From Oharaeibacter diazotrophicus (GTDB lineage Bacteria > Pseudomonadota > Alphaproteobacteria > Rhizobiales > Pleomorphomonadaceae): a stretch of DNA of 64,000 nucleotides. A program made the translations under genes and the position numbers. The stretch lies in the NCBI RefSeq assembly GCF_004362745.1, contig NZ_SNXY01000006.1, positions 1,736,001 through 1,800,000 on the forward strand. The letters are read 5' to 3'. Positions 24,007 to 47,534 of this stretch are shown piece by piece (position 1 is the first letter of the stretch; every line of letters starts with the position of its first letter). The notes under the pieces were generated by a model. It worked only from the letters and a program-made list of their open reading frames with translations. It did no database searches and was not told the origin of the DNA.

Positions 24007-24513
24007 ATGGACGAGCGCTTCACGGGCGGCATCCTCGGCGGCGACGGCGTCGATCCCGCCACGCGCCCGACCCTCGGCGAGATCGGGCTCAACCACTTCG
24101 CGCCCTATCTGATGAACCGGGTCATGGCGCGCTGGAACGCCAACCTCGCCGAGGACCTCAAGGCGCACGACCTCACCACTACCAAGATGCGCGCGCTCGC
24201 GGTGCTGTGCCTGTCGGGCAGCCTGACCATCAACGAGCTGTCGGTCTACGCCGTCACCGAGCAGTCGACCATGAGCCGCACCCTCGACGCCCTCGAGGAC
24301 CAGGGCCTGATCCGCCGCGTCCCCCGCCCCGAGGACATGCGCGTGCGCGACGTCTCGGTCACCGAGGAGGGCCGCGCCGCCTTCGACAGCTTCTGGCCGG
24401 TGATGTACGAGGACTTCCGCGCCCTGTTCGACGGTGTCGACGACGAGGAGTACCGAGCCTTCGTCGCCACCCTCCACAAGCTGCTCAGGAACATCCGCAA
24501 GCACGAGCTGTGA
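24007..24513 (+). CDS. MarR-family transcriptional regulator
   Basis: A 168-residue winged-helix protein. After a variable N-terminus (1-25), dimerisation helix residues (NHFAPYLMNRVMARWNANLA) lead into the winged helix with LTINELSVYAVTEQSTMSRTL (about 79-99), DNA-reading helix and wing RPEDMRVRDVSVTEEGR. The ATG at 24007 with GGGGGGA upstream is preferred; an upstream ATG lies in the repeat. It is the last gene of the isatin-hydrolase block and the best candidate to read the CATAT/CTTGCAA motifs in the two divergent promoters (20934-21268 and 31637-32037). The effector is unknown. Confidence 0.87.
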   Translation: MDERFTGGILGGDGVDPATRPTLGEIGLNHFAPYLMNRVMARWNANLAEDLKAHDLTTTKMRALAVLCLSGSLTINELSVYAVTEQSTMSRTLDALEDQGLIRRVPRPEDMRVRDVSVTEEGRAAFDSFWPVMYEDFRALFDGVDDEEYRAFVATLHKLLRNIRKHEL

Positions 24514-27917: not shown

Positions 27918-29465
27918 TCACAACGTCCCCACCGTCTTCAGCGCCCCGTCGAGCGCCACGCCGGCCTCGTCGAGCAGGGCGGCCTGCCGGAGCCGCGCGA
28001 GCCAGACCGCGCCATCCTCGCGCGGGATCAGCGTCGGCAGCGCGGAGAGCACGCGGTCGAACTTGGAGACGCCGCGGGCGTGGGTGTCGGAATAGCCCTT
28101 GACCAGCCGGCGGCAGCCGAGCACCTCGACGGCGAGGTCGTAGTTGGCCGGGAGCGTCGCCGAGGCGGTGGCGAGCCAGGCTTCGCGGTGGGCGGTCTCG
28201 CGGGCGTGGCGGAGCGAGCCGCGGCGGCGGCCGCGCAGGCCCGCGACCATGTAGAGCCCGAGGAACCAGAACAGCGTGTGCGTCTTCACGCGGCGGCCGC
28301 GGTTCACCACCCGGTCGAGCGCGCGGTAGAGCCGCGGGCGGTTCTCGATGAAGAGACCGAGCCGCTCCGGCAGGGTGCCGCAGACCTCCTCCATGCGCGG
28401 GTGCATGTACTCGGTGGTGTGCAGCACCTGGCCCTCGCGCACGCCGACCTCGCGGCGCACACGGGCGAGCCGGGCGGCGCGGGTCTTGAGGTCGGCGACG
28501 CGGACGACGTCGTCGTAGGCCATTGCGACCGCGACGTATTTCGCCGCCGCCACCGTGAAGGCGAAGCCGCGCTCGGCGCCGCCGGCGGCGACGTCCTCGC
28601 CGTGCAGCCGGCGGACGCGGTCGAGATACTCGCCGGCGTAGTCGGGGTCCTGGTAGGCGGTGAGCGTCTTGACGCCGGCGAACAGCATCGCCCGCGCCGC
28701 TTCCGGGAACTCCGCGCGGATGCGGTGGACCAGCCGGTCGAGCGCGGGATGGCCGGCGGTCTCCGGCACGGCGTCGAGCCGCTTCGGCGCCGTGCGCGCC
28801 ACCGCCTCGCGCGGCTTGTCGCGGACGCGGTCGGCGGCGACGCGGAAGGCCTTCAGGCTCGCCTCGACGCCCTTGCCGCCGGCGCCGATCGTCGCCTCGA
28901 AGGCCTCGCGCGGGAAGGGCAGCACGCCGGAACCGGCGAGCGCGCCGAACATCGAGGCCGAGATCACGCTGCCGTTCGCCTTGGCCACCGCCTCCATGTC
29001 GAAGGCGATGGTGCGCTTGGCCGCGAAGTCGGTGGCGGCGACGACCACGCCGGGGTCGCCGACGCCGTCGCCGGGACGCTCCTTCTCGACCACCGCGAAG
29101 GAGCGGTGTGTCGAGGCGATCAGCGTGGTGCGGTCGGGCGTGACGAGGCCGCGCAGGACCGAGCGCCCCGCCTCCATCAGTTCGGCGGCCATCACGACGT
29201 CGACGTCGCCCGGCGTCGGCATCAGCGAAAGCACCGGCGCGCGCCCGTCCTTCGCCGGCAGCATCTCGACGTAGTAGATGGTGGCGCCGGTGCGCTGGGC
29301 GACGCCCGGCACCGATGTGGTCTGCGCCATCCACCCCTCAGCTTCGGCGAGGGCGACGATCCAGTCGGCGAGCACGCCGCCGCCCTGACCGCCCATGGCG
29401 AGGATGGCGATCGACAGCGGCCGGTCGGTGGAGAGGCGCGCGGGGAAGGTCTCGTGCCGCGTCAT
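27918..29465 (-). CDS. iorB: Indolepyruvate oxidoreductase subunit beta with C-terminal DUF6537-like domain
   Basis: A 515-residue protein. Residues 15 to about 200 are the pyruvate:ferredoxin oxidoreductase gamma-type domain (SIAILAMGGQGGGVLADWI, 18-36, and SVPGVAQRTGATIYYVE). The remaining about 300 residues are an extra domain typical of proteobacterial aerobic-type IorB, with KTHTLFWFLGLYMVAGLRG and GVSKFDRVLSALP. With the alpha subunit it should convert an arylpyruvate (indolepyruvate, perhaps phenylpyruvate) plus CoA to the arylacetyl-CoA, reducing ferredoxin. It begins 17 bp after the iorA stop codon, so the two are co-transcribed. Confidence 0.85.
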   Translation of the reverse strand: MTRHETFPARLSTDRPLSIAILAMGGQGGGVLADWIVALAEAEGWMAQTTSVPGVAQRTGATIYYVEMLPAKDGRAPVLSLMPTPGDVDVVMAAELMEAGRSVLRGLVTPDRTTLIASTHRSFAVVEKERPGDGVGDPGVVVAATDFAAKRTIAFDMEAVAKANGSVISASMFGALAGSGVLPFPREAFEATIGAGGKGVEASLKAFRVAADRVRDKPREAVARTAPKRLDAVPETAGHPALDRLVHRIRAEFPEAARAMLFAGVKTLTAYQDPDYAGEYLDRVRRLHGEDVAAGGAERGFAFTVAAAKYVAVAMAYDDVVRVADLKTRAARLARVRREVGVREGQVLHTTEYMHPRMEEVCGTLPERLGLFIENRPRLYRALDRVVNRGRRVKTHTLFWFLGLYMVAGLRGRRRGSLRHARETAHREAWLATASATLPANYDLAVEVLGCRRLVKGYSDTHARGVSKFDRVLSALPTLIPREDGAVWLARLRQAALLDEAGVALDGALKTVGTL

Positions 29466-29482: not shown

Positions 29483-31636
29483 TCACTCGGCGAAGACGAC
29501 GCGGCGCGCCGCGCGGCGGCGCTGCAGCCAGGCGATGACCGTGCCGCGGACGCGGTCGAGCAGCAGGTCCCAGCGGGTCGGGTTGTGCACCACCTCGGCC
29601 TTGTAGAAGGACGGGCACAGCACCGCGGCCTCGGCGACCTCGCCGCAATTGCCGCAGCCGACGCAGTTCTCGTCGATGGCGGCGACCGGATCGTCCTTCA
29701 GCGGATCGTCGGTGTGCTTGACCGTCAGCGACGGGCAGCCGGACAGGCGGATGCAGGCGTGGTCGCCGGTGCAGACGTCCTCGTCGACGCCGAACTTCTC
29801 GCGCACCACGCGCCGGCCGTCCTTGACCGCCTTGGCGAACAGCGGCTTCACCCGGCGCTGCTTGTTCAGCATGCACTCGGAGGAGGCGACGATGATCTTC
29901 GGTCCGGGCGCGTCGGTGGTTAGCGCCTCGCGCAGCGTGTCGCGCATTTTGCCGACGTCGTAGGTGCGGTCGATCTGGCGCACCCAGGTGGCGCCGACGC
30001 CCTTCACGGCGGCGACGATCGAGTTGTTGGTCTTGCGCCGCGGGTTGAGCGCGCGCGAGGACAGGATGTCCTGCCCGCCGGTGGCGGCCGAATAATAGTT
30101 GTCGACGACCAGGATCACCCCGTCCTGCTTGTTGAAGACGGCGTTGCCGACCGACGAGTTCAGGCCGTTGTGCCAGAAGCCGCCGTCGCCCATCACCGAG
30201 ATCGGGCGCTTGTCGGCCTCGACGTTGAAGGCCGACGCCGAGGCGGGCCCGAGGCCGTAGCCCATGGTGGTGGCGCCGATGTTGAACGGCGGCAGGATCG
30301 AGAACAGGTGGCAGCCGATGTCGGCCGAGACGTGGTGTCGGCCGAGTTCCTGCTCGACCAGCTTCATCGCCGCGAAGATCGGCCGCTCCGGACAGCCGAC
30401 GCAGAAGCCGGCCGGCCGGGCCGGCACCACCTCGGCCAGCGCCTTGACCTTGGGGTCGGCGAGCACGCCGGACGGGTCCGGCAGCGGCGGCTGGTTGCCG
30501 AGCAGCGGCCGGGCGTTGGCCTCGACGAACTGCCGGAGCCCCTTGGTCAGCACCGGCGTGGTGTATTCGCCGCCCATCGGCAGCACGTCCTTGCCCGACA
30601 CCCTCGTCTGGATGTCGCGGCGACGCAGGATGGTGCTCAGCGCCTGCTCGATGTACTCGGGCGCGCCCTCCTCGACCACCACCACCGCCTTCTTGGACGC
30701 GCAGAAGGCGACCAGCTCGTCCTCGATCAGCGGATAGGTCACGTTCATCACGTAGAGCGGCACCGCCGTCTCGCCGTAGACGTCCGCGAGGCCGAGAAGT
30801 TGCAGGGCGCGCATGACGTTGTTGTACATGCCGCCCTGGAGCACGATGCCGATCTCGGCCGTCTCCGGTCCGAACAGCTCGTTGAGCTTGCGGCTCTTGA
30901 CGAACTCCACCGCGGCCGGCCAGCGCCGCTCGAGCTTGTCCTTCTCCTGCAGGAAGGAGGCCGGCGGCAGCACGATGCGGTTGACGTCGCGCACCGGGTT
31001 CTCGACCGCCTCCTTCAGCGTGAAGGCCGGCTTGCGGTTGGCCTTGGCGACGAACTGGCCGTGGACGTGGCAGGTGCGGATGCGCACCTCCAGCATCACC
31101 GGCGTGCTCGACGCCTCGGAGAGCTCGAAACCCTCCTCGACCATGCGCACCACGGTCGGCAGGTCGGGTCGCGGGTCGAGCAGCCACATCTGCGACTTCA
31201 TCGCGTAGGCGTGGCTGCGCTCCTGCATGATCGAGGAGCCCTCGCCGTAGTCCTCGCCGATCACGATCAGCGCGCCGCCGGTGACGCCGGACGACGACAG
31301 GTTGGAGAGCGCGTCGGCGGCGACGTTGGTGCCGGCGGTCGACTTCCAGGTCACCGCACCGCGCACCGGATACATCACCGAGGCCGACAGCATCGCCGCC
31401 GCGGTCGCCTCCGAGGCCGACGATTCGAAGTGGACCCCGAGGTCCTCCATGACGTCCTTGGCGTCGGCCAGCACGTCCATCAGGTGCGAGATCGGCGAGC
31501 CCTGGTAGCCGCCGACGTAGGAGACGCCCGACTGCAGCAGCGCCTTGGTGATCGCGAGGATGCCCTCGCCGCGGAAGATCTCGCCCTCGCCGAGCTTCAG
31601 GTCCTCGACTTCGCGGGCAAACGAACGCTCTGCCAT
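29483..31636 (-). CDS. iorA: Indolepyruvate:ferredoxin oxidoreductase subunit alpha
   Basis: A 717-residue protein. The N-terminal half carries the pyrimidine-binding and transketolase-like domains (VSYVGGYQGSPISHLMD, about 36-52). The thiamine diphosphate site is VMGDGGFWHNGL near 475-490. The C-terminus has iron-sulfur cysteines (CTGDHACIRLSGCPS and NCVGCGNCG...LCPS, about 622-675). The first cluster has an unusual C-x5-C-x4-C spacing. It is an oxidative decarboxylase of arylpyruvates to arylacetyl-CoA. It is divergent from the ABC importer and shares its intergenic motifs with the isatin-hydrolase promoter region. A GGGAGG ribosome site is present. Confidence 0.88.
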   Translation of the reverse strand: MAERSFAREVEDLKLGEGEIFRGEGILAITKALLQSGVSYVGGYQGSPISHLMDVLADAKDVMEDLGVHFESSASEATAAAMLSASVMYPVRGAVTWKSTAGTNVAADALSNLSSSGVTGGALIVIGEDYGEGSSIMQERSHAYAMKSQMWLLDPRPDLPTVVRMVEEGFELSEASSTPVMLEVRIRTCHVHGQFVAKANRKPAFTLKEAVENPVRDVNRIVLPPASFLQEKDKLERRWPAAVEFVKSRKLNELFGPETAEIGIVLQGGMYNNVMRALQLLGLADVYGETAVPLYVMNVTYPLIEDELVAFCASKKAVVVVEEGAPEYIEQALSTILRRRDIQTRVSGKDVLPMGGEYTTPVLTKGLRQFVEANARPLLGNQPPLPDPSGVLADPKVKALAEVVPARPAGFCVGCPERPIFAAMKLVEQELGRHHVSADIGCHLFSILPPFNIGATTMGYGLGPASASAFNVEADKRPISVMGDGGFWHNGLNSSVGNAVFNKQDGVILVVDNYYSAATGGQDILSSRALNPRRKTNNSIVAAVKGVGATWVRQIDRTYDVGKMRDTLREALTTDAPGPKIIVASSECMLNKQRRVKPLFAKAVKDGRRVVREKFGVDEDVCTGDHACIRLSGCPSLTVKHTDDPLKDDPVAAIDENCVGCGNCGEVAEAAVLCPSFYKAEVVHNPTRWDLLLDRVRGTVIAWLQRRRAARRVVFAE

Positions 31637-32037
31637 ATCGGGCCTCCCGGGGGAGATCGCCGCCCTCGACGACGATCGCTTGCAAATTCATATTTCCGTC
31701 GCGCCGGACCTGTCAACCGATCCCGATCGTCCAATCGGCGTGCCCGGCACGCCCTTCCCGCAATGCAGCGCGCCCCGGCCCGCCCGATCGCTGCGCGGCC
31801 GACGCCGACCCTGGCCCCGGCCTACTCGCGTCGTCGCCGCAATTATATGCACACGCATTCATCTCGACCGCTCGAGGCGGCGGCGATTTGCCTTGCGCCG
31901 CGCCGCCGGATGCCCACAGATTCCCCTTGGCAGCGGCCGACTTGTTATTTTAAGCTTGAAACAACGACACGGGGAAAACCCCGGTCACAGGGTCTGCCGG
32001 CGCCATGCCGGCCGAGAAGATGAGGGGAGAGGGTTCC
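31637..32037. promoter_or_regulatory. Divergent promoter region of iorA and the ABC importer
   Basis: The 401-bp gene-free region holds CTTGCAAATTCATATTTCCG (31679-31698), close to the iorA start, and ATTATATGCACACGCATTCA (31842-31861) followed by TCTC. Both resemble the pair at 20934-21268. Nearer the importer lies TTTTAAGCTTGAAA (31948-31961), an almost perfect palindrome that also resembles the TTCAA-N4-TNNAA motifs at 9287 and 18939. A ribosome site GGGGAGAGGG precedes the importer start. Confidence 0.55.
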
Positions 32038-33582
32038 ATGCTGACGCCGTCCCGTCGTCAGGCGCTCGCATTGGGCGCCGGCGGTTTCCTGGCCACGCTC
32101 GTCACCGGCCGCGGCATCGCCCGCGCCGCCGAGGGCGGCACGCTCACCATCGCCTACAACGTCAACCTGCCGTCCTTCGACCCGACCGTGGGTCCGTCGG
32201 CGGTCAACCCGACGATCCAGGCGATCTACCGCTCGATCTTCGACCAGTTCGTCGGCCAGGCGCCGGACCTGTCGTTCCAGCCCGGCCTCGGCCTCCTCAC
32301 CGAGTGGGGCTGGAACGAGGACAAGACCAAGATCCACATGACCGTGCGCGAGGGCGTCACCTGGCACGACGGCTCGCCCTTCACGGCCGAGGACGTGGTG
32401 TGGTCGCTCCAGCGCGCCGCCGACGAGAAGACCGGCAACCCGATCCAATTCGTCTGGTCGACCGCCGGCAACTACGTCGTCGACGGCAACAAGATCACCG
32501 CCGACGTGCTGCGCTTCGAGCCGACCTTCTTCAAGTGGATGGCCTTCCTCACCGGCTACGTGCTGCCGAAGGCCTATTACGAGAAGGTCGGGCCGGAGGG
32601 CTTCGAGAAGAAGCCCGTGGGCACCGGGCCCTACATGGTCGACGCCTACGAGGGCAACGCCTTCCTGCGCCTCAAGGCCAACCCGAACTGGTACGGCGGC
32701 AAGCCGGCCTTCGACACCGTGGTGTTCAAGTTCGTGCCGGACGCCACCAGCCGCGTCGCCGAGATCGAGTCCGGCTCCTCGGACGTCACCCTCGAGGTGC
32801 CCTACGAGGAGTTCGACCGCCTGATCGAGATCGAGGGCCTCGCCGGCTCGGCGACGCCGATCTCCGACATCGGCATGATCTTCCTGAACGACGTCGACGC
32901 GATGCTGGACAAGAACGTCCGCCTCGCCGCCCACCACGCCATCGACAAGGAAGCCATCGTCAAGCGGCTGCTGCTCGGCTACGGCGTGCCGATCGACACG
33001 CTCGAGGCGCCGGAATACGCCGCCTACGACGCTTCCATCAAGGTCGGCTACGACCCGGAGAAGGCCAAGGAACTCCTGAAGGCCTCGGGCTTCTCGACCG
33101 AGAACCCGGTCAAGTTCAGGATCCAGACGACGCGCGGCTTCAAGCCGAAGGACTACGAGATGGTCCAGGCGATCGTCGGCATGTGGCGCAAGGTCGGCAT
33201 CGAGGCCGAGATCGAGGTCTACGAGATCGCCAAGCACTACGAGCTGCGCGCCGCCGACCAGCTCGCCCCGGCCGCCTTCTACAATTGGGGCAACGCCATC
33301 GGCGACCCGACCACGTCGACCGGCTTCGCCATGTTCGGCCCCTCGCCCCACTCGGTCTGGGACACCGACGACCTCGACGCCATGATCGCCCCGCTCTGGG
33401 GCGAGAAGGACGAGGAAAAGCGCATCGCCGGCTGGAAGGCGGTCGACAAGTACATCGCAGAAGAGGGCTACGTCATCCCGCTGCTGCAGTACGTCCAGCC
33501 GGTCGTCTACAAGGCGAGCCTCAAGGTCACCCCCAACGTCTCCGGCGCCCTCCAGCCGACGCTGATCGCGCCCGGCGCCTGA
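32038..33582 (+). CDS. ABC importer substrate-binding protein, peptide/opine type (system 1)
   Basis: A 514-residue SBP_bac_5 (DppA/OppA-like) periplasmic protein with a twin-arginine-type leader (SRRQALALGAGGFLATLV, residues 5-22; cleavage near ARA-AE). Conserved features include FDPTVGPSAVNPTIQ near residue 40 and GTGPYMVDAYEGNAFLRLKAN (about 198-218). It is divergent from iorA and is separated from its permease genes by a 480-bp repeat island. The ligand is not predictable; the location suggests an indolic compound or an amino-acid conjugate of an aromatic acid. The start at 32038 is chosen for the ribosome site and leader. Confidence 0.87.
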   Translation: MLTPSRRQALALGAGGFLATLVTGRGIARAAEGGTLTIAYNVNLPSFDPTVGPSAVNPTIQAIYRSIFDQFVGQAPDLSFQPGLGLLTEWGWNEDKTKIHMTVREGVTWHDGSPFTAEDVVWSLQRAADEKTGNPIQFVWSTAGNYVVDGNKITADVLRFEPTFFKWMAFLTGYVLPKAYYEKVGPEGFEKKPVGTGPYMVDAYEGNAFLRLKANPNWYGGKPAFDTVVFKFVPDATSRVAEIESGSSDVTLEVPYEEFDRLIEIEGLAGSATPISDIGMIFLNDVDAMLDKNVRLAAHHAIDKEAIVKRLLLGYGVPIDTLEAPEYAAYDASIKVGYDPEKAKELLKASGFSTENPVKFRIQTTRGFKPKDYEMVQAIVGMWRKVGIEAEIEVYEIAKHYELRAADQLAPAAFYNWGNAIGDPTTSTGFAMFGPSPHSVWDTDDLDAMIAPLWGEKDEEKRIAGWKAVDKYIAEEGYVIPLLQYVQPVVYKASLKVTPNVSGALQPTLIAPGA

Positions 33583-34063
33583 CGGGCGGGGCGCACGCGG
33601 CCGCCTCGCTTCCGCCCGATCGCCGGGCGGAGGAGTCGCCACCGCCGAGCGGATTGCCTACCGGCAGGTCAAGCCGTGCCCGCTTCCCGGTTCGCCGTAC
33701 CCCTTCCACCGCGTCCCCTCCCCCTTGGAGGGGGAGGGACAGGGAGAGGGGGCCACCCGCGCCGACGCCGGCCGACGTCGCCGGCGAGGGCACCCGGAAG
33801 CCGCACGGCGTCTGCCCCCTCTCCCCAACCCTCCCCCTCCAGGGGGGAGGGGGCAGGTCGATCGGGTGGAAGCGGGAAGCGCAGGACGACGACGGGGCTG
33901 AAGGACGGAGGCAGAACTGCCGACGCTCGGCAATCGACACTCTCCTTCCGATTGCCGAAGCCCCACTTCCGACTGCCGACTGCCGACTGCCGACTGCCGA
34001 CTGCCGAAGCCCTACTGCCTACTGCCCCCTCCCCCCACCCTCTCCCCCACCCCCGTCCCCGCC
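33583..34063. repeat. Composite repeat island inside the importer operon
   Basis: The 481 bp between the binding-protein gene and the first permease gene contain two family-A hairpins (33709-33752 and 33814-33856). A heptamer tract with five perfect CGACTGC units follows (33969-34003), preceded by degenerate CGATTGCCGAAGCCCCACTT units and followed by GAAGCCCTACTGCCTACTGC. No gene is supported. Such hairpins could stabilise the upstream binding-protein transcript. Confidence 0.82.
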
Positions 34064-35071
34064 ATGCTCGCCGTCGCCGCCCTCAACCGTCTCCTGATGG
34101 CCCTCGCCACGCTCTTCGGCGTCGCCGTGGTGGTGTTCGTGCTCTTGCGCGTCGTCCCCGGCGATCCGATCGCGATGATGATCGCGCCCGGCGCCAGCCC
34201 CGCCGACGTCGCGGCGCTGCGCGCCCGCTACGGGCTCGACGCCTCGATCCCGGTGCAGTTCTTGGTCTGGCTCGGCGCCGTCGCCGGCGGCGACTTCGGC
34301 ACCTCGATCTCGCTGCGGCGCGACGTGCTGGAGCTCCTGGCCGAGCGGCTGCCGGCGACGCTCGAGCTCGCCGTCGCCGCGCTCGCCTTCGCGCTGGCGC
34401 TCGGCGGCACCGTGGCGGTGGTCGGCACGCTGGCGCGCCGCACGATCGGCGAGACGGTAGTCGACACCGTCAACGGCGTGTTCCTGGCGGTGCCCGACTT
34501 CGTCTGGGCGCTGGCGCTGGTGCTCCTCCTCGGCGTCGTCTTCCCGGTGTTCCCGCTGTCCGGCCGGATCGACCCCGGCGCCGACGTCGCCTTCGCGACA
34601 CGCTTCTACCTGACCGAGAGCCTCGTCACGCTCCGCTTCGACGTCTTCCTCGGCATCCTCGCGCACATGGCGATGCCGGTGCTGGCGCTCGGCTTCCCGT
34701 TGGCGGCGGTGATCGCGCGGGTGCTGAAGGGCGCGCTCGCCGAGGCGATGGTGCAGGATTACGTGCTGCTCGCCCGCCTCAAGGGCATGTCGGACCTCCG
34801 GCTGATCCTGCAGGAGGCGCTGCGCAACGCCATCGGCCCAACCCTGGCGCTGACCGGCGTGCAGTTCACCTTCCTGATCGGCGGCACGGTGATCGTCGAG
34901 CGGATCTTCTCCTATCCCGGCATCGGCAACATGGGCGTCGACGCCGTCATCAACCGCGACCTGCCGCTGATCCAGGGCCTCGTCCTCGTGTTCGGCACGC
35001 TGTTCATCCTGGTCAATCTCGCGACCGACCTCGCGGTCGCCGCCCTGAACCCGCGGCTGCGCCATGGCTGA
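34064..35071 (+). CDS. ABC importer permease, DppB-type (system 1)
   Basis: A 335-residue inner-membrane protein with about six membrane segments. It has the EAA-loop region of binding-protein-dependent permeases (DYVLLARLKGMSDLRLILQEALRNA, about 229-253) and the N-terminal FGVAVVVFVLLRVVPGDPI typical of DppB/OppB. It pairs with the next gene (DppC-type) to form the translocation path. The ATG follows the repeat island, with only a weak ribosome site visible. Function follows from family membership. Confidence 0.9.
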   Translation: MLAVAALNRLLMALATLFGVAVVVFVLLRVVPGDPIAMMIAPGASPADVAALRARYGLDASIPVQFLVWLGAVAGGDFGTSISLRRDVLELLAERLPATLELAVAALAFALALGGTVAVVGTLARRTIGETVVDTVNGVFLAVPDFVWALALVLLLGVVFPVFPLSGRIDPGADVAFATRFYLTESLVTLRFDVFLGILAHMAMPVLALGFPLAAVIARVLKGALAEAMVQDYVLLARLKGMSDLRLILQEALRNAIGPTLALTGVQFTFLIGGTVIVERIFSYPGIGNMGVDAVINRDLPLIQGLVLVFGTLFILVNLATDLAVAALNPRLRHG

Positions 35072-35140
35072 GGCGCGCCCCCTTCCCTTCCGCCCCGCCC
35101 GCGCGCTCTACTCGACGCCGCGCCCCACCGGAGCGCAGTC

Positions 35141-36034
35141 ATGACCGACGTCACCCACCAGGGACCGGCCCCCGCCTTGTCGAGACCCCCGCTCCGCCTC
35201 CCCGCGCCGCTGCGCGATCCCAAGGTCGTCGTCGGCGGCGGCTTCGTGCTGTTCCTGGTGGTGCTCGCGGTGTTCGCGCCGTGGATCGCGCCGAAGGACC
35301 CGCTCGAGCAGGACCTGATGCTCGGCACCCTGCCGCCGGTCGGCTTTTCCGGCGCCGAGCCCGGCTACCTCCTCGGCACCGACGACCTCGGCCGCGACGT
35401 GCTCTCGCGGGTGATCCACGGCAGCCGGGTCGCGCTCACGGTCGCCTTCGTCGCCGCCAGCCTCGCGGCGCTTGTCGGCACCGGGCTCGGCCTGCTCGCC
35501 GGCTGGTACCGCGGCTGGATCGACGTGGTGGTGTCCCGCCTCGTCGACGTCTGGATGGCCTTCCCGCCAGTGCTGCTGTCGATCCTGCTGGTGGCGGTGA
35601 TCGGGGCCGGCCTGCCGGCAGTGATCGCGGCGATCGTCATCATCGACTGGACGCGCTTCTGCCGGGTGGTGCGCGCCGAGACGATGGCGCAGGCCGGCCT
35701 CGACTACGTCACCGCCGCCCGCTCGGTCGGCTTCTCGCGCGGGCGGATCCTGGTCTCGGAGATCCTGCCCAACGTGGTGCCGGTGCTGATCGCCCTCGTC
35801 AGCCTCGAGATGGGCATCGCCGTCATCGTCGAGGCGATCCTGTCCTTCGTCGGCCTGTCGGTGTCGTCGGACACGCCGACCTGGGGTGGCATGATCGCCG
35901 AGGGCCGCCAGATGGTCCGCCACGGCTGGTGGGTGCTGGCGGCGCCGCTGACGATGCTGTTCCTCACCGTCCTCGCCTTCAACCAGCTCGGCGACGGCCT
36001 GCGCCGCGCCCTCGACCCGGTGATGAAGCGATGA
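35141..36034 (+). CDS. ABC importer permease, DppC-type (system 1)
   Basis: A 297-residue inner-membrane protein. It has the DppC-type N-terminal segment and periplasmic loop (LLGTDDLGRDVLSRVIHGSR, about 76-95) and the EAA motif (DYVTAARSVGFSRGRILVSEILPN, about 187-210). Five to six membrane helices. Its stop codon overlaps the start of the first ATPase gene (ATGA), so translation is coupled. It forms a heterodimer with the preceding permease. Confidence 0.9.
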   Translation: MTDVTHQGPAPALSRPPLRLPAPLRDPKVVVGGGFVLFLVVLAVFAPWIAPKDPLEQDLMLGTLPPVGFSGAEPGYLLGTDDLGRDVLSRVIHGSRVALTVAFVAASLAALVGTGLGLLAGWYRGWIDVVVSRLVDVWMAFPPVLLSILLVAVIGAGLPAVIAAIVIIDWTRFCRVVRAETMAQAGLDYVTAARSVGFSRGRILVSEILPNVVPVLIALVSLEMGIAVIVEAILSFVGLSVSSDTPTWGGMIAEGRQMVRHGWWVLAAPLTMLFLTVLAFNQLGDGLRRALDPVMKR

Positions 36035-36915
36035 GCGCGCCCCTCCTGGACATCGTCGGCCTCTCAGCCGTCTCCGACCGCGACGGCGGCGCCCCGGTGC
36101 TCTCCGACGTCTCGCTGCGGCTGGAACGCGGCCGCGTCCGCGGCCTCGTCGGCGAGAGCGGCGCCGGCAAGTCCACGATCGCCAAGGCGCTGCTCGGCAT
36201 CCTGCCGCGCACCGTGCGCGTCGTCGGCGGCCACGTCCTGTTCGAGGGTCGCGACCTCCTCGCCATGGCCGCCGCCGAGCGTCGCCGCGTCCTCGGCACC
36301 GAGATCGTCCTGATCCCGCAGGACCCGATGACCTCGCTGAACCCGTCGCGGCGGATCGGCGCCCAGATCGTCGACGGCCTCGTGGTCGGCCGCGGCCTCG
36401 GCCGGCGCGAGGCGACGGCGCGCGCCGCCGCCATGCTCGCCGAAGTGCAGATCCGCGATCCCGAGCGGGTGATGCGGTCCTATCCGCACGAGCTCTCCGG
36501 CGGCATGCGCCAGCGCGTGCTGATCGCTGCCGCCTTCGTGATGGAGCCGAAGCTGGTGGTCGCCGACGAGCCGACCACCGCCCTCGACGTCACCGTGCAG
36601 AAGCAGATCCTGCGCCTGATCCGCGGCCTGCAGGAGGCCCACGGCACCGCCGTCGTCTTCGTCACCCACGATCTCGGCGTCGTCGCCAAGATCTGCGACG
36701 ACGTCACGCTCCTGTGGACCGGCCGCGTCGTCGAGGCCGGCCCGGTCGAGGCGATGCTGACGCGCCCGACCCACCCCTACACCCGCGCGCTGATCGCCGC
36801 GAGCCCGCGTCACGACCGTCCCGAGGAGGGCCTCGCGCCCGTGCCCGAGGCGGTGTTCGCGGGGCTCCGCCGCGAGGCCGCCGCGCTCGACGGAGAACCG
36901 CGCCATGGCCGCTGA
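36031..36915 (+). CDS. ABC importer ATPase, DppD-type (system 1)
   Basis: A 294-residue nucleotide-binding protein: Walker A GESGAGKST (39-47), Q-loop IPQDPMTSLNPS, signature LSGGMRQRV (about 156-164), Walker B LVVADEPTTALD (about 176-187), and the oligopeptide-type C-terminal segment HPYTRALIAASP. Powers the importer together with the following ATPase; the two reading frames overlap by 11 bp. Confidence 0.93.
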   Translation: MSAPLLDIVGLSAVSDRDGGAPVLSDVSLRLERGRVRGLVGESGAGKSTIAKALLGILPRTVRVVGGHVLFEGRDLLAMAAAERRRVLGTEIVLIPQDPMTSLNPSRRIGAQIVDGLVVGRGLGRREATARAAAMLAEVQIRDPERVMRSYPHELSGGMRQRVLIAAAFVMEPKLVVADEPTTALDVTVQKQILRLIRGLQEAHGTAVVFVTHDLGVVAKICDDVTLLWTGRVVEAGPVEAMLTRPTHPYTRALIAASPRHDRPEEGLAPVPEAVFAGLRREAAALDGEPRHGR

Positions 36916-37744
36916 CCTGATCGTCGCCACCGGCGTCGAGGTCGTCTACGGCGCCCGCCGCGGCCTGTTCGGCGACCGGCCCGGCACCCGCGTCCTGCAC
37001 GGCGTCGACGTCCGCGTCGGCCGCGGCGAGACCGTCGGCATCGTCGGCGAGAGCGGTTCGGGCAAGACCACGCTCGGCCGCGCCCTGATCCGCCTCGTCG
37101 AGCCCTCGGCCGGCCGCGTCGTCTTCGACGGCACCGACGTCACGCACATGGGCGAGGACGCGCTCCGGCCGCTGCGCCGGCGCATGCAGATGATCTTCCA
37201 GGACCCGATGGCCTGCCTCAACCCGCGGCACACCATCCGGCGCATCCTCGAGGGCCCGCTCCGCCTGCACGGCCTCGCCACCGACGCGATTTCCGCCGGC
37301 CGGCGCGTCGCCGCCATGCTCGACAAGGTCGGCCTGCCGCAGGCGGTGCTGGAGCGCCATCCCCACGAACTCTCCGGCGGCCAGCGCCAGCGCGTCGGCA
37401 TCGCGCGCGCCGCGGTGCTGGAGCCCGATTTCGTGCTCGCCGACGAGATCGTCTCCGGCCTCGACGTCTCCACCCAGGCCCAGGTGCTGCGCCTGCTCAA
37501 GGACCTCTCGGCCGACATGGGCCTCTCCATGGCCTTCATCAGCCACGACCTCTCCGTCGTCCGCGCCGTCTGCGACCGCGTCTACGTGATGCGCCACGGC
37601 GTGATCGTCGAGGAGGGCCGCTGCGAGGAGCTGTTCGCCGCGCCGAAGGCCCCCTACACCCGCGCGCTGATCGACGCCGTGCCGCTGCCCGAGATCGACC
37701 CGGGCTGGCTCGATCGCCGCACCGACTTCGAGGACGCCGCCTGA
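36905..37744 (+). CDS. ABC importer ATPase, DppF-type (system 1)
   Basis: A 279-residue ATPase with Walker A GESGSGKTT (50-58), Q-loop IFQDPMACLNPRH, signature [10 protein letters not shown] (about 157-166), Walker B FVLADEIVSGLD (about 178-189; the usual Pro after Asp-Glu is replaced by Ile) and APYTRALIDAVP near the end. It is the last core gene of the importer. The VOC gene follows 131 bp later on the same strand. Confidence 0.92.
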   Translation: MAADLIVATGVEVVYGARRGLFGDRPGTRVLHGVDVRVGRGETVGIVGESGSGKTTLGRALIRLVEPSAGRVVFDGTDVTHMGEDALRPLRRRMQMIFQDPMACLNPRHTIRRILEGPLRLHGLATDAISAGRRVAAMLDKVGLPQAVLERHPHELSGGQRQRVGIARAAVLEPDFVLADEIVSGLDVSTQAQVLRLLKDLSADMGLSMAFISHDLSVVRAVCDRVYVMRHGVIVEEGRCEELFAAPKAPYTRALIDAVPLPEIDPGWLDRRTDFEDAA

Positions 37745-39887: not shown

Positions 39888-40613
39888 ATGATCGCTGGAG
39901 CAACATTCCTCAGGCGGATCGCCGAGGTCCTGGCGCGGGGCCGGATGGTCAGGCGCCGACTGCCCAACGGGGTCGCCATCTACGTCACGCCGGACAGCCA
40001 ACTCGGCTACCTCAGGTCCCGTCTGGACGATCGGATGCTGCGGATCGCGTGGGAGACCGTGACGCCGTCGTCGGTCGTCTGGGACATCGGCGCCAACTGC
40101 GGCGTGTTCGCCTTCGGCTGCGCAGGGGCCCGCAGCATCGTCGCCGTCGAGCCGGATCCGTTTCTCTGCCATGTGGTGCAGCGCTCGATGGCCCTGAACG
40201 GCGTCGCGGTGAAACTGGTCGCCGCCGCGGCGGCTTCGGCGGTCGGCCTCGCCGAGTTCTCGATCGCTGCGCGCGGGCGGGCCTCGAACCATCTGACGCG
40301 CGTGGGCGGGCGCAGTCAGGCGGGCGGCGAGCGCGCGCGCATCCTGGTCCCGACGATCACCTTGGACGGGCTCCTGGACGTCTCCGCTCCGCCGACGCTC
40401 CTCAAGATCGACGTCGAAGGCGCCGAGGTCGACGTGTTGCGCGGCGCCCGCCGCGTGCTGTCCGAAGCGAGACCGGCGATCCACCTCGAGGTCGATCAGT
40501 CCACGGAGAGCGACTGCAGGGCCATCCTCGAGGCCGCCGACTACGACACCACCGCCCTCGACGAGATGAACTGGTTCTGCGTCCCGCGCCGACGCCTCAC
40601 CGCCGCCGCCTGA
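39888..40613 (+). CDS. FkbM-family methyltransferase
   Basis: A 241-residue S-adenosylmethionine-dependent methyltransferase. SAM motif I is VVWDIGANCGVFAFGCA (about 63-79), then IVAVEPDPFLCHVV (about 85-98). The FkbM-type acidic segment LLKIDVEGAEVDVLRGARR (about 167-185) and HLEV follow. Such enzymes O-methylate sugars or small molecules. A GGAGAGGG ribosome site supports the ATG at 39888. It overlaps the convergent araC gene by 17 bp and has no obvious tie to the indolic genes, so it may be an unrelated insertion. Confidence 0.85.
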   Translation: MIAGATFLRRIAEVLARGRMVRRRLPNGVAIYVTPDSQLGYLRSRLDDRMLRIAWETVTPSSVVWDIGANCGVFAFGCAGARSIVAVEPDPFLCHVVQRSMALNGVAVKLVAAAAASAVGLAEFSIAARGRASNHLTRVGGRSQAGGERARILVPTITLDGLLDVSAPPTLLKIDVEGAEVDVLRGARRVLSEARPAIHLEVDQSTESDCRAILEAADYDTTALDEMNWFCVPRRRLTAAA

Positions 40614-41580
40614 GCGTCTCCGACGGGCTCTCGCCGAAGCGCTCCCGATAGGCGGCCGCCGCGCGGCCGAGGTGGCCGAAGCCGGCCGCGAAGGCGATGT
40701 CGGCGACCAGCGCCGGGCCGTCGGGGTCGAGCAGGCCCGCGCGCAGGCGCTCGAGCCGGGCGGCCTGCAGTGCCTCGGTGATCGTGTGTCCGCGCGCCCG
40801 CCGGAATGCGTCCTGGAGCGAGCGCAGGCAGACGCCCGCCGCGGCGGCGACGTCTGCGGTCGAGATCGCCCGGCCCGCGTTCTCGGCGATGAACGCCTCG
40901 GCGCGGCGCACCGCGGCCGGCGCCGGAGCGGCCGTCGGGCGGGCCAGCACGTCGGTGCGGTCGTGCCGCAGCCCGGCCAGCATCAGCGTCGTCACCCCGT
41001 CGCGCAGCGTGGCGAGATAGGCGGCCGGCAGCCGGGCGCCGGCGTCGGCAGCCGCCAGCAGCGCCGCCGCCTGCCGTTGCAGCGCCATGCCGACGGGACC
41101 GTCGAGGTCGACTGCGGTGTCGAAGGCCGGCGCCGCGGCCGGCCGGTCGGCGAGCGCACCGTAGCGCGCGGCCATCGCTTCGCGCTCCACCAGCACGATC
41201 AGCTTCTCGCAGCCGGCCTGCCAGGTCATCCGCGTCGCCAGCATCGGCGACAGCACGGAGGCCGTCCGCCCCGCCTCGGCCTCGGCGACCCGCGTACCGC
41301 AGCGCACCCGCGCCCGGCCCTTCAGCGGAATCTGCAGCAGATAGAAACGCGCGAGTTCGCCGGGGTCGATCTCCACCGTCGCGCCGTAGGCGACGTAGTT
41401 GACCGAGAAGTCGCCGAAGGTCGCGGCGTGGTGGCGGGCGTGGAAGCCCTCGGCGCGCCGCTCCAGCGGGCTCAGGAAATGCGGACAGAAGATCCGCCCG
41501 ATCGCCTCGCGCGCCTCGTCGGGCCGGCGCGTGTCGACGACGGCGTTGCGGGCGAGCGGCAGGTCGGGCGTCGGCGTCAT
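40597..41580 (-). CDS. AraC-family transcriptional activator
   Basis: A 327-residue regulator. The N-terminal ligand domain (about 30-205) is of the AraC_binding_2 type, with FSVNYVAYGATVEIDPGELA and FYLLQIPLKGRARV. The C-terminal double helix-turn-helix (about 228-327) includes ISTADVAAAAGVCLRSLQDAF and IAFAAGFGHLGRAAAAYRERFGESPSE. It is divergent from the flavin reductase/SDR/oxygenase operon. AraC-type activators of the same layout control indole and styrene-type oxygenase operons, so local activation is likely. Confidence 0.9.
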   Translation of the reverse strand: MTPTPDLPLARNAVVDTRRPDEAREAIGRIFCPHFLSPLERRAEGFHARHHAATFGDFSVNYVAYGATVEIDPGELARFYLLQIPLKGRARVRCGTRVAEAEAGRTASVLSPMLATRMTWQAGCEKLIVLVEREAMAARYGALADRPAAAPAFDTAVDLDGPVGMALQRQAAALLAAADAGARLPAAYLATLRDGVTTLMLAGLRHDRTDVLARPTAAPAPAAVRRAEAFIAENAGRAISTADVAAAAGVCLRSLQDAFRRARGHTITEALQAARLERLRAGLLDPDGPALVADIAFAAGFGHLGRAAAAYRERFGESPSETLRRRR

Positions 41581-41670
41581 CGCGACCCTCCTCGGATCCC
41601 CGCGCGAAGCGGACAGCCTCCCTCGCCGCGCGGATAGAACCGGCCGAAATCCGGCACCCTACTGATGATA

Positions 41671-41684
41671 GTTGAAACTTGAAC
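41671..41684 (+). promoter_or_regulatory. Putative operator before the flavin reductase gene
   Basis: GTTGAAACTTGAAC lies 19 bp upstream of the flavin reductase ATG in an AT-rich patch. Its reverse complement GTTCAAGTTTCAAC resembles the TTCAA-N4-TNNAA motifs at 9287, 18939 and (reversed) 31948. Binding is inferred; the protein could be the AraC regulator or a MarR. Confidence 0.4.
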
Positions 41685-41702
41685 GAAGAGGAAGCGTCGA
41701 CC

Positions 41703-42248
41703 ATGGACATCGCCGCCTCGAGGGACGCCTTCCGTACCGGCATGCGCCGCGTCGCCGGGGCCGTCACCATCGTCACCACCGCCGACGCCGCCGGCGAGCG
41801 CCGCGGCGCCACCGCCACCGCGGTCTGCTCGCTGACCGTCGACCCACCCGCCGTGATCGCCTGCATCGCCCGCGACAGCGCCGTCGGCCGAATGGCGCCG
41901 GAGAGCGGCATCTTCACCGTCAACGTCCTGACGGGCGACCAGCGCCCGGTCGCCGAGACCTTCGCCGGCCGCACCGGACACGTCGGCGACGAGCGCTTCG
42001 CCGTCGGCGACTGGACCGCCGGCGCCCTCGGCGCGCCGCGGCTCGCCGGCGCCGTCGCCGCCTTCGAATGCCGGCTCGAGAAGGCGGTCGAATTCGCCAC
42101 CCACGTCGTCCTGTTCGGCGCCGTCGTCGGCACCGTCCTCGGCCCGGCCGGGCTCGCGCCGCTCGTCTACGTCGACGGCCGCTTCGCCGGCGTCGCCGAT
42201 GCCGACGTCGACGCCGGATCCGGACAGCCGGACTCGCCGCGCGGATAG
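41703..42248 (+). CDS. Flavin reductase (StyB/IifD/HpaC-like)
   Basis: A 181-residue FMN-binding split-barrel protein: RRVAGAVTIVTTADAAGERRGATATAVCSLTVDPPAV (about 15-51) and a GGRHHP-equivalent region near the C-terminus. It reduces FAD or FMN with NADH and hands the free reduced flavin to the oxygenase encoded two genes downstream, completing a two-component monooxygenase. A GAAGAGGAAG ribosome site precedes the ATG. First gene of a three-gene operon that includes an SDR. Confidence 0.88.
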   Translation: MDIAASRDAFRTGMRRVAGAVTIVTTADAAGERRGATATAVCSLTVDPPAVIACIARDSAVGRMAPESGIFTVNVLTGDQRPVAETFAGRTGHVGDERFAVGDWTAGALGAPRLAGAVAAFECRLEKAVEFATHVVLFGAVVGTVLGPAGLAPLVYVDGRFAGVADADVDAGSGQPDSPRG

Positions 42249-42308
42249 CGGGACGCCGCGGGCGCCCCGACCATCGGGGCATTCCGGATCGGGACGGGAG
42301 GATCTGAC

Positions 42309-43094
42309 ATGCGCGGACTCGAGGGCAGAACGGCGATCGTATCGGGCGGCGCCACGTTGATCGGCGAGGCCGTCGGCGCCACGCTCGCCGGCTACGGCAC
42401 CAATGTCGTGATCGCCGACGTCGACGTCGCCGCCGGCGAGGCCGCCGCGGCGAGGATCGGCCGCGGCGCCCGCTTCCTCGCCTGCGACGTCACCTCCGAC
42501 GCCGACGTCGCCGCCCTCGTCGCCGCCACCGTCGAGGCGACCGGCCGGCTCGACCATCTCGTCAACGTCGCCTGCACCTATCTCGACGACGGCGCCGACA
42601 CCAGCCGCGCCGATTGGCTGAAGGCGCTCGACGTCAACATCGTCGGCTCGGTGATGTTGATGCAGGCGGCCCGGCCGCATCTGAAGGCGAACCGCGGCGC
42701 CATCGTCAACTTCGGCTCGATCTCGGCGCGCGTCGCCCAGATCGGCCGCTGGGTCTACCCGGTCTCGAAGGCGGCGATCCTCCAACTCACCCGCAACCAG
42801 GCCATGGACCTCGCCCCCGACGGCATCCGCGTCAACGCGGTGTCGCCGGGCTGGACCTGGTCCAACATCATGCGCCAGCTGACCAACGACCGCCGCGAGA
42901 AGGCCGACGCCGTGGCGAAGCCCTTCCACCTCCTCGGCCGCGCCGGCGATCCCGCCGAGGTCGGCGAGGCCGTCGCCTTCCTGCTCTCCGACGCCGCTTC
43001 CTTCGTCACCGGCACCGACCTCGCGGTCGACGGCGGCTACGGCGCCATGGGCCCCGAGCGCGCCGACCCGGCCATCCCGCTCCTGATGGAGTGA
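42309..43094 (+). CDS. SDR-family dehydrogenase of the oxygenase operon
   Basis: A 261-residue short-chain dehydrogenase. The cofactor motif is a variant SGGATLIG (12-19), and NNAG is replaced by NVAC (88-91), both unusual. Catalytic YPVSK is near 155-159 and a GGYGAMGPERADPAIPL tail follows. SDRs are found with StyA-type oxygenases in indole operons (the IifB protein of the Acinetobacter iif operon oxidises cis-indole-2,3-dihydrodiol to 3-hydroxyindolin-2-one). A similar dihydrodiol or hydroxyindole dehydrogenase role is likely here. The gene lies 60 bp after the reductase gene with a GGGAGGA ribosome site. Confidence 0.85.
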   Translation: MRGLEGRTAIVSGGATLIGEAVGATLAGYGTNVVIADVDVAAGEAAAARIGRGARFLACDVTSDADVAALVAATVEATGRLDHLVNVACTYLDDGADTSRADWLKALDVNIVGSVMLMQAARPHLKANRGAIVNFGSISARVAQIGRWVYPVSKAAILQLTRNQAMDLAPDGIRVNAVSPGWTWSNIMRQLTNDRREKADAVAKPFHLLGRAGDPAEVGEAVAFLLSDAASFVTGTDLAVDGGYGAMGPERADPAIPLLME

Positions 43095-43168
43095 ACCACC
43101 CCTTCCGCCGCGACGGGCGCGCCAGAACCGCCCGCGTCGGCCTCTTCCAGAGAACCAGGGACACCCCG

Positions 43169-44401
43169 ATGACCAAGCGCAGCTTCACCATCGTCGGCGG
43201 CGGCCAGTCCGGGCTCCAGCTCGGCTGCGGCCTGCTCGACGCCGGCCACGACGTCCGCATCGTCCAGAACCGTACCGCCGAGGAGATCCACGGCGGCCGC
43301 GTCCTGTCCAGCCAGTGCATGTTCGGCGAGGCGCTCGTCAACGAGGCGGCCGTCGGCCTCGACTTCTGGACCGACACCTGCCCGACCGTCGACAGCATCA
43401 ACTTCTGCGTCCCCGCGCCCGACGGCGCCGGCAAGGCGATCGACTGGAACGGCAAGCTCGACCGCCCCGCCCGTAGCGTCGACCAGCGCGTCAAGATCCC
43501 CGCCTGGATGGCCGAGTTCGAGCGCCGCGGCGGCCGGCTCGACATCGCCGAGGCCGGCATTCCCGACCTCGAGGCCTACGCCCGCGACAGCGACCTCGTG
43601 ATCGTCGCCGCCGGCAAGGGCGACATCGCCCGTCTGTTCCCGCGCGACGCCGGCAAGTCGCCGTTCGACCGGCCGCAGCGCGCCCTGGCCCTCACCTACG
43701 TCACCGGCATGACGCCGCGGCCGGAGCACTCGGCGGTCTGCTTCAACCTGATCCCCGGCGTCGGCGAGTATTTCGTCTTCCCGGCGCTGACGACGTCCGG
43801 CCCTTGCGAGATCATGGTGTTCGAGGGCCTGCCCGGCGGCCCGATGGACTGCTGGCGCGACGTCCGTTCGCCGGCCGAGCATCTGGCGACCTCCAAGCGG
43901 ATCCTCGAAACCTTCCTGCCGTGGGAAGCCGAGCGCTGCCGCGCCATCGAGCTCACCGACGACAACGGCATCCTCGCCGGCGCCTTCGCGCCCACGGTGC
44001 GCGAACCGGTGGGCCGGCTGCCCTCGGGCGCGGTCGTGCTCGGCCTCGCCGACGCGGTCTGCCTCAACGACCCGATCACCGGCCAGGGCTCCAACAACGC
44101 GTCGAAGGCCGCCAAGATCTACCTCGACGCCATCCTCGCCCACGGCGACCGCCCGTTCGACGCCGCCTTCATGCAGGCGACCTTCGACGCCTATTGGGCC
44201 TACGCGCAGTTCGTGGTCGGCTGGACCAACGCGCTCCTGCAGCCCCCGCCGCCGCACGTGCTCCGGATCATGGGCAGCGCCCAGGCCCACCCCGCCCTCG
44301 CCCGCCGCATCGCCAACGGCTTCGACGAACCGCGCGACCTCTTCCCCTGGTTCGCCGTCCCCGAGGAAGCCGACCGATACCTCGGCCAGCTCGCGGCGTG
44401 A
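43169..44401 (+). CDS. StyA-type flavoprotein monooxygenase (indole oxygenase-like)
   Basis: A 410-residue group E flavoprotein monooxygenase, the oxygenase partner of a free-flavin reductase. FAD motif FTIVGGGQSGLQLGCGLLDAG (6-26). The StyA-like substrate region is RVLSSQCMFGEALVNEAAVGLDFW, and the second FAD motif lies in VVLGLADAVCLNDPITGQGSNNA near 290-312. Family members epoxidise styrene or indole; the indole enzymes (IifC/IndA type) give indole-2,3-epoxide or dihydrodiol and indigo. With an SDR and reductase in the same operon, and isatin-hydrolase-like and aminobenzoyl-CoA genes nearby, indole is the preferred substrate (inference). Confidence 0.83.
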   Translation: MTKRSFTIVGGGQSGLQLGCGLLDAGHDVRIVQNRTAEEIHGGRVLSSQCMFGEALVNEAAVGLDFWTDTCPTVDSINFCVPAPDGAGKAIDWNGKLDRPARSVDQRVKIPAWMAEFERRGGRLDIAEAGIPDLEAYARDSDLVIVAAGKGDIARLFPRDAGKSPFDRPQRALALTYVTGMTPRPEHSAVCFNLIPGVGEYFVFPALTTSGPCEIMVFEGLPGGPMDCWRDVRSPAEHLATSKRILETFLPWEAERCRAIELTDDNGILAGAFAPTVREPVGRLPSGAVVLGLADAVCLNDPITGQGSNNASKAAKIYLDAILAHGDRPFDAAFMQATFDAYWAYAQFVVGWTNALLQPPPPHVLRIMGSAQAHPALARRIANGFDEPRDLFPWFAVPEEADRYLGQLAA

Positions 44402-45675: not shown

Positions 45676-45689
45676 CGAAAGGGCTCCCG

Positions 45690-47451: not shown

Positions 47452-47505
47452 CCGTTTCCTTCCCCCTCGCGGGCGCGGCGTCGGATCGCCGCGCGAACGA
47501 TCGAA

Positions 47506-47534
47506 CCGGGCCCCGCCGTCGCGGCGGGGCCCGG
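47506..47534 (-). promoter_or_regulatory. Intercistronic hairpin between sbp and cysT
   Basis: A perfect 13-bp stem CCGGGCCCCGCCG (47506-47518) with 47522-47534 around a 3-nt loop, 10 bp after the binding-protein stop codon. Hairpins here typically protect the binding-protein message and lower permease expression. Confidence 0.55.

Follow-up and report, generated by a model that had tools for sequence, protein, structure and literature searches.

The window analysed here, a 64-kb stretch of a single contig from the 5.0-Mb genome of Oharaeibacter diazotrophicus (estimated 99.96% complete), contains four intact genes at 40597-44401: a gene for an AraC-family regulator on the reverse strand, followed on the forward strand by genes for a flavin reductase, a short-chain dehydrogenase/reductase (SDR) and an IndA/IifC-type oxygenase, with the SDR gene between the other two. 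The original prediction had read these open reading frames (ORFs) as an AraC-controlled operon whose oxygenase has its own flavin reductase, and both readings hold: all four ORFs are intact there, and the reductase is a separate gene alongside. The iif-type set of IifB-type SDR, IifC, IifD and IifR is present in full. The same window contains a homologue of isatin hydrolase flanked on either side by flavin adenine dinucleotide (FAD) oxidoreductases (hereinafter designated FAD1 and FAD2) and, like these oxidoreductases beyond what had been noted before, IorAB-like genes and a cluster around a coenzyme A (CoA) monooxygenase gene (Table 1). We favour, with moderate confidence, the view that the AraC-controlled, IifA-free indole monooxygenase operon provides the entry to an isatin route whose other genes lie within the same 64 kb.

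Relatives of the oxygenase were collected by scanning GTDB genome contigs, which gave at least 551 matches; the best 80 were retained as loci, 48 of which have both 10-kb flanks (hereinafter full-flank loci). Whole-genome searches covered 50 genomes out of the 80 loci, picked for named isolates and long contigs, and a further sample comprised 199 genomes from the window's own order, Rhizobiales (hereinafter the order sample).

Table 1. Genes and sites of the window discussed in the text, with coordinates, strand and supporting matches; assigned roles are predictions.
Feature	Coordinates	Strand	Basis or remark
IndR/IifR-like AraC-family regulator	40597..41580	-	PF14525 + PF12833 (AraC_binding_2/HTH_18)
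Possible IndR operator	41602..41637	.	two GGAYA half-sites, direct repeat, 21 bp apart
Flavin reductase (IifD role; reduced-flavin supplier)	41703..42248	+	PF01613 (Flavin_Reduct), 131 bits
IifB-like SDR (dihydrodiol to dioxindole predicted)	42309..43094	+	adh_short_C2; IifB identity; PDB 8eh2
IndA/IifC-type indole monooxygenase (group E)	43169..44401	+	PF17885, PDB match, tree, fingerprint
Isatin hydrolase homologue (isatin to isatinate predicted)	21269..22057	+	PF04199; PDB 4j0n
FAD2, carotenoid-desaturase/amine-oxidase-type FAD oxidoreductase; candidate dioxindole-to-isatin dehydrogenase	22269..23858	+	
FAD1, FAD2 paralogue (38% identity)	19362..20933	-	divergent from isatin hydrolase
MarR2, MarR/SlyA-type regulator	24007..24513	+	
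MarR1, MarR-like regulator	18388..18897	-	named for its resemblance in location and sequence; without a match in NCBIfam
IorA-like alpha subunit; candidate isatinate:acceptor oxidoreductase (CoA-acylating)	29483..31636	-	thiamine pyrophosphate (TPP) domain
IorB-like beta subunit	27918..29465	-	NF006179, 715 bits, cut-off 348; PF01558
Salicylyl-CoA 5-hydroxylase / 2-aminobenzoyl-CoA monooxygenase-reductase type enzyme	9318..11645	+	NF006101, 1350 bits, cut-off 1078
Possible lower-pathway SDR	12337-13098	+	
Possible lower-pathway enoyl-CoA hydratase	13095-13943	+	
Possible lower-pathway acyl-CoA dehydrogenase	13947-15122	+	
Possible lower-pathway RidA-type gene	15957-16295	+	
Possible lower-pathway FadJ-like gene	16301-18256	+	
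Oligopeptide-type ATP-binding cassette (ABC) importer, recurrent in these loci	32005..37744	+	binding-protein homologue in 14/48 full-flank loci
VOC protein	37876-38472	+	homologue in 12/48 full-flank loci
Cupin	38502-38951	+	
4HBT thioesterase	39015-39476	-	homologue in 9/48 full-flank loci

The oxygenase scores 157.7 bits against PF17885 (Smoa_sbd, the styrene/indole monooxygenase substrate-binding domain; cut-off 25). Its nearest solved structures are PDB 7z4x and variants, which we take to be VpIndA1 (phmmer, 603 bits over residues 5-409), followed at a distance by styrene monooxygenase A (3ihm, 130 bits); at the positions that distinguish 7z97 and 7zca from Variovorax IndA (7z4x) in the printed alignment, the oxygenase of the window agrees with 7z4x. 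Identity is 67, 66, 66 and 55% to IifC/IndA relatives from Alloyangia, Azospirillum, Variovorax and Acinetobacter baumannii, respectively, compared with 28% to StyA of Pseudomonas putida S12, and the score against the curated StyA model NF045732 (210.6 bits) is below the cut-off of 550. In a 94-row tree, from which eight fused or over-long IndA-like frames were omitted (including the only one of locus L081), the oxygenase falls on the IifC/IndA side within a 30-row set, mostly Rhizobiales (100/99), and three annotated StyA rows together with L096 and L099 are separated by a 100/98 branch, with a program warning of long outgroup branches. This placement, in a tree with StyA and IifC/IndA rows and without an NSMOA clade, leaves the original reading standing. 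The published fingerprint of group E indole monooxygenases (IMOs) is S46-Q48-M50-V/I73-I76-A96 in StyA numbering, that of the styrene monooxygenase type N-V-H-Y-H-S (PMC13101512); the window oxygenase reads SQMVIA, the indole type shared by 74 of the 87 IMO-type rows (window included), and four styrene-type rows read NVHYHS at the same six positions.

Judged by its sequence, the oxygenase is very likely an indole monooxygenase and an ordinary member of a known family; clade, identity and fingerprint all support the preference for an indole over a styrene enzyme expressed in the original prediction. Its identification as a styrene monooxygenase was rejected on the fingerprint mismatch, the tree placement and the missed StyA cut-off. 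No styrene-oxide isomerase or phenylacetaldehyde dehydrogenase stands among the annotated neighbour genes, although no search with StyC or StyD models was made. Group E enzymes are promiscuous, and styrene, skatole or a sulfide could be the substrate with indole incidental. We consider this very improbable in view of the full match to the indole fingerprint, the position of the StyA rows across the tree and the IifB-type partner SDR; moreover, skatole enzymes are reported to be at most 40% identical to styrene and indole ones (PMC13101512), whereas the window oxygenase is 55-67% identical to its IifC/IndA relatives.

The SDR is 57-66% identical to four IifB-type proteins, A. baumannii IifB among them, and its top solved match, PDB 8eh2 (303 bits), is nearly identical to the A. 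baumannii IifB of locus L002. Its SGGATLIG and NVAC motifs had been singled out as unusual; both are present, but a comparison of 83 sequences (thresholds 50% identity and 200 aa; window counted) identifies them as a normal IifB-family signature. The glycine motif reads SGGATLIG in 27 and PGGATKIG in 35 of the 83, N[VLI]Ax[TS]Y occurs in 82 and the Ser/Tyr/Lys pattern in all, and both A. baumannii IifB and 8eh2 carry SGGATLIG/NLACTY. With motifs typical of the family and the Ser/Tyr/Lys pattern retained, the idea of a degenerate SDR was rejected. IifB is reported to convert the indole diol to 3-hydroxyindolin-2-one (PMC6221969, PMC7225977).

A homologue of the regulator is present in 45 of the 48 full-flank loci. 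Its best NCBIfam model is AndR (160 bits, short of the cut-off of 350), which also ranks first for IifR of A. baumannii (181) and for the regulator from Alloyangia (193); in A. baumannii, indole is reported to activate the iif operon via IifR (PMC4577076). The half-sites of the candidate operator, between the regulator and reductase genes, are GGACAG at 41611 and GGATAG at 41632. A GGA-A direct repeat with a 21-bp period recurs at this position in other loci: the window is among the 17 of 27 intergenic regions that have the loose pattern (shuffled control: mean 0.4, maximum 3), with 21 the standout among periods 17-26, and the strict pattern occurs in 16 of 27, not including the window, which shows the loose form only. 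The reductase ORF opens at 41679, and translation probably starts at the ATG at 41703, which has AGAGGAAG ahead of it. A methyltransferase-like ORF (FkbM-like by eye; 39945-40613, +) overlaps the 3' end of the regulator gene.

The absence of an IifA homologue, claimed before for the operon, extends to the whole genome: a search with the 422-aa A. baumannii IifA (E up to 0.01) found no full-length IifA, and the sole match, a dienelactone-hydrolase match of 36% identity, was rejected as IifA because it covers only residues 7-235. Among the 50 genomes, full-length IifA (53-58% identity, at least 411 residues) occurs in three (G008, G038 and G042), in G008 on a different contig from IndA, and partial matches within residues 5-275 occur in 16 others; two of the 48 full-flank loci have IifA within their flanks. 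The IifA-containing iif operon of A. baumannii adjoins antABC. No gene with the Rieske-type domain PF00848 lies in the window, and the three alpha proteins found elsewhere in the genome all fall short of the anthranilate dioxygenase cut-offs, two being best matched by glycine-betaine monooxygenase below its cut-off and one matched weakly. Possession of IifA may thus be associated with free anthranilate, and that of the isatin module with a CoA route, a contrast drawn from few loci.

The original prediction supposed that the product may leave the operon at the level of dioxindole or isatin and meet a "cyclase" encoded in the same stretch. By sequence that cyclase is an isatin hydrolase homologue, which aligns over its full length, and without gaps in the printed alignment, with isatin hydrolase B of Labrenzia aggregata (4j0n, 417 bits), the second structure match being isatin hydrolase A (5nnb, 311 bits). 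The metal motif HTGTHFDAPVH begins at residue 73 (HxGTHxDxPxH type), and H73, H77, D79, H83 and S225 are kept; the equivalent ligands reported for isatin hydrolase A are His69, His73 and Asp75, with a neighbouring His79, and an S225C mutant of isatin hydrolase B is mentioned in the same source (PMC6117287). Shared length and metal motif make isatin hydrolysis the predicted function.

FAD2 gives only distant matches by sequence. Its predicted model (mean pLDDT 85, falling below 50 at residues 468-493 and in two shorter segments) has a fold resembling carotenoid desaturases, nicotine oxidoreductase and amine oxidases, which fits, and does not prove, a small N-heterocyclic substrate. In the order sample, isatin hydrolase counted at 65% identity or above occurs in 14 of 199 genomes (24 of the 38 positive genomes lie below this threshold and were left out), and FAD2 (E up to 1e-100) occurs in the same 14, about 450 bases or less away in each. 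In loci L008, L010 and L012, a FAD2 orthologue (65-70% identity) follows IndA by about 98-162 bases; in the genome of L010 (G004), this is the only close FAD2, and none is found in the 20 kb around its isatin hydrolase. Because all 14 order-sample genomes have FAD2 adjoining isatin hydrolase, and FAD2 can also take up a place beside IndA, we infer that it turns dioxindole into isatin, and its distribution is best explained if it links the metabolites of the indole oxygenase and the isatin hydrolase. Oxidation of dioxindole by air alone, with FAD1 and FAD2 acting on an unrelated compound, would find a parallel in Acinetobacter, where isatin has been regarded as a dead end that forms spontaneously (view cited in PMC12538310 and PMC6221969); we regard it as unlikely beside the strict pairing of FAD2 with isatin hydrolase. 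Two Rhizobium genomes (L008 with L102; L012 with L104) have two close FAD2 copies each, one after IndA and one adjacent to isatin hydrolase.

Isatinate is an aryl-2-oxoacid, from which a TPP-dependent 2-oxoacid:acceptor oxidoreductase could yield 2-aminobenzoyl-CoA. IorA is a relative of indolepyruvate:ferredoxin oxidoreductase that misses the cut-off of TIGR03336 (279.3 bits; cut-off 650.9) and is not filed as that enzyme, and among solved structures it has a single weak match. The enzyme at 9318-11645 combines FAD_binding_3 and Oxidored_FMN domains (FAD monooxygenase plus old yellow enzyme) and belongs to a family that, we assume, includes 2-aminobenzoyl-CoA monooxygenase/reductase, although family membership leaves its substrate undecided. 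Azoarcus evansii has a 2-aminobenzoyl-CoA monooxygenase/reductase pathway. The window resembles it in having a two-domain enzyme above the curated salicylyl-CoA 5-hydroxylase cut-off and differs from it in having no benzoate-CoA-ligase-type match, IorAB being the proposed maker of the thioester. Homologues of the possible lower-pathway genes stand beside IndA in loci L025 and L028.

In the proposed route, the oxygenase would epoxidise indole using reduced flavin from the reductase, and the SDR would oxidise the resulting diol to dioxindole (3-hydroxyindolin-2-one). Dehydrogenation of dioxindole to isatin would fall to FAD2, perhaps jointly with FAD1, and isatin hydrolase would open the isatin to isatinate (2-aminophenylglyoxylate). 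The IorAB-type enzyme would then decarboxylate isatinate oxidatively onto CoA, giving 2-aminobenzoyl-CoA with no adenosine triphosphate (ATP) spent, and the salicylyl/2-aminobenzoyl-CoA monooxygenase-reductase together with the beta-oxidation-type genes at 9318-18256 would degrade the thioester. For the predicted oxygenase, SDR and isatin hydrolase steps there are characterised relatives; gene linkage and chemistry are the grounds for proposing the FAD2 and IorAB steps and the link to the lower genes.

The genes of this route recur together. Within the flanks of the 48 full-flank loci, we found isatin hydrolase in 14, IorA in 16, FAD2 in 16, FAD1 in 15 and the CoA monooxygenase in 15, and 30 loci have at least one of isatin hydrolase, IorA, IorB, FAD1, FAD2 and the CoA monooxygenase near IndA. 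Locus L025 combines IorA, the transporter, the VOC protein, the indole operon, the CoA monooxygenase and lower-gene homologues, and its next 20 kb (L126) adds MarR2, FAD2, isatin hydrolase, FAD1 and MarR1; an Alloyangia plasmid carries, within 25 kb, regulator-SDR-IndA-reductase-thioesterase-CoA monooxygenase and then cyclase-FAD-MarR-IorA, and an Azospirillum plasmid has the same gene company in part. Kaistia hirudinis (L027) carries a large share of the set. Across the 50 genomes with close IndA relatives, IndA and FAD2 (E up to 1e-80) occur in all, and isatin hydrolase (E up to 1e-30) and IorA in 49 each, so that isatin hydrolase and IndA are both present in 49 of 50, as expected of the hand-over at dioxindole or isatin put forward earlier. 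The best isatin hydrolase matches are 47-87% identical; four actinobacterial FAD2 matches reach only 44-45%, and one FAD2 is split over two contigs. The genome without isatin hydrolase and IorA (G036, Haloechinothrix) has a FAD2 of 44% identity at a distance of about 3 kb from IndA. The distance between isatin hydrolase and IndA is at most 25 kb in 30 genomes and 25.1 kb in one, and the two are on different contigs in 18; isatin hydrolase and IorA are no more than 25 kb apart in 48 of 49. In the order sample, IndA of the window's clade occurs in four of 199 genomes (the 35% IndA-like protein of G148 was not counted, and an extra 38% copy in G231 was ignored), and isatin hydrolase at 65% identity or above is present in 4/4 of these genomes versus 10/195 of the others (Fisher 1.6e-5, a guide only, as the genomes are related); with matches down to 49% identity, the counts are 4/4 and 17/195. 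Three Rhodococcus loci (L073, L080 and L082) have two IndA copies each, the second fused to about 160 extra residues, with IifA and IorAB nearby and, in L073 and L080, isatin hydrolase as well.

Operon and surroundings most likely represent a recurrent variant of indole degradation with isatin on the path, and several observations weigh against this. The genomes compared are related, and the counts are not independent. In 18 of the 48 full-flank loci, none of isatin hydrolase, IorAB, FAD1, FAD2 and the CoA monooxygenase is near IndA, and three of the 50 genomes hold both IifA and the isatin module. IndA, isatin hydrolase and FAD2 are all absent from the five other order-sample genomes of the same family, so the gene set is patchy. 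IndA is missing from ten of the 14 genomes in the order sample that have isatin hydrolase paired with FAD2, and a 24.7-kb stretch of a Sulfitobacter sp. D7 plasmid (L100) carries isatin hydrolase-MarR-IorA-IorB without IndA, FAD1 and FAD2; the isatin module therefore appears to serve other inputs as well and to be a shared lower route, perhaps including that of indole-acetate. Activation of free anthranilate is possible, too, given a benzoate-CoA-ligase-like protein encoded elsewhere in the genome (366.9 bits; cut-off 375).

The modules found without IndA favour a reading in which the operon merely detoxifies indole to dioxindole, indigo or isatin and the isatin module serves indole-acetate in the manner of the iad loci, the two having no more than an intermediate in common. 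Consistent with it, indole-acetate is reported to induce Bradyrhizobium iorA and iorB (bll3411/bll3410) 30.7- and 7.6-fold (PMC3788728), and the iad loci pass through isatin (PMC9613470). Such a separation of tasks is nevertheless rather improbable in our estimate, since nearly all genomes that have close relatives of IndA possess the module, L004, L008, L010 and L012 have a codirectional FAD2 gene downstream of IndA, and none of the three Rieske alpha genes of the genome is located in the window.

A different fate of isatinate has also to be considered, namely decarboxylation to 2-aminobenzaldehyde or anthranilate followed by a separate CoA ligase, with IorAB otherwise engaged. C7H7NO and anthranilate are reported from Variovorax strains with iadC-K2 (PMC12633357), and the benzoate-CoA-ligase-like gene could supply the ligase. 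All eight genome matches of the benzoate-CoA ligase model lie outside the window, however, IorA keeps to the vicinity of isatin hydrolase, and it scores below the indolepyruvate cut-off; we hold this course to be doubtful and direct thioester formation by IorAB to be the better account.

The iif operon of Acinetobacter (iifABCDE, iifR) and its ind, iif2 and ipo-dho relatives have in common with the window an IifC-type oxygenase, an IifB-type SDR, a reductase and a divergent AraC gene; the window differs in its genome being without full-length IifA (the related Variovorax locus L005 carries an IifA), in the gene order reductase-SDR-oxygenase and in its neighbours, the isatin module and the CoA monooxygenase instead of antABC. 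The iad loci of Variovorax and Bradyrhizobium, which are reported to take indole-acetate via isatin to anthranilate, share with the proposed route isatin as intermediate, IorAB homologues (IadA/IadB) and two MarR regulators (PMC9613470), whereas entry in the window would be by a flavin monooxygenase in place of the Rieske-type IadCDE. A preprint from 2025 attributes the iad steps to the region iadC-K2, and its main text contains neither the word iadA nor iadB (PMC12633357). The enzymes belong to known families, and the proposed pathway as assembled would be a new variant.

A 2018 review leaves open whether isatin has a place in indole degradation, since none of the genes in the iif cluster forms or consumes it (PMC6221969). 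The recurrent gene set supplies candidates for the missing isatin enzymes, consistent with the absence of IifA, and makes the isatin question testable gene by gene. Among open-licence papers, represented mostly by titles and the beginnings of abstracts, we found none stating the conversion of isatinate to 2-aminobenzoyl-CoA by IorAB and none stating a dioxindole oxidoreductase in indole degradation. Operon and isatin-to-CoA genes together suggest a second way of breaking down indole, unlike that worked out in the strains studied so far; if this is true, one lower route would be common to the breakdown of indole and auxin. Tentatively, and with slightly less than even confidence, we extend this to a widespread, undescribed aerobic mineralisation of indole in alphaproteobacteria and some actinobacteria, in which isatin would be a true intermediate, a dedicated carotenoid-desaturase-like flavoprotein of the FAD2 type would act as dioxindole dehydrogenase and IorAB would convert isatinate directly to 2-aminobenzoyl-CoA, anthranilate never being free and no ATP being spent on activation.

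The window has some further features. GC-rich intergenic repeats occupy 11669-12250 (a 114-nt unit in about five copies), 15145-15841 (a unit of about 207 nt in four copies) and 18949-19074 (a 14-nt tandem). An IS110-like transposase gene, recognised by eye at 26478-27416 (+), lies between the FAD2/MarR2 block and iorB. Downstream of the operon, a sulfate/thiosulfate-type ABC importer (by eye; 44635-48566, -) and a second oligopeptide-type ABC importer (48924-54163, +; binding protein PF00496) both look unrelated.

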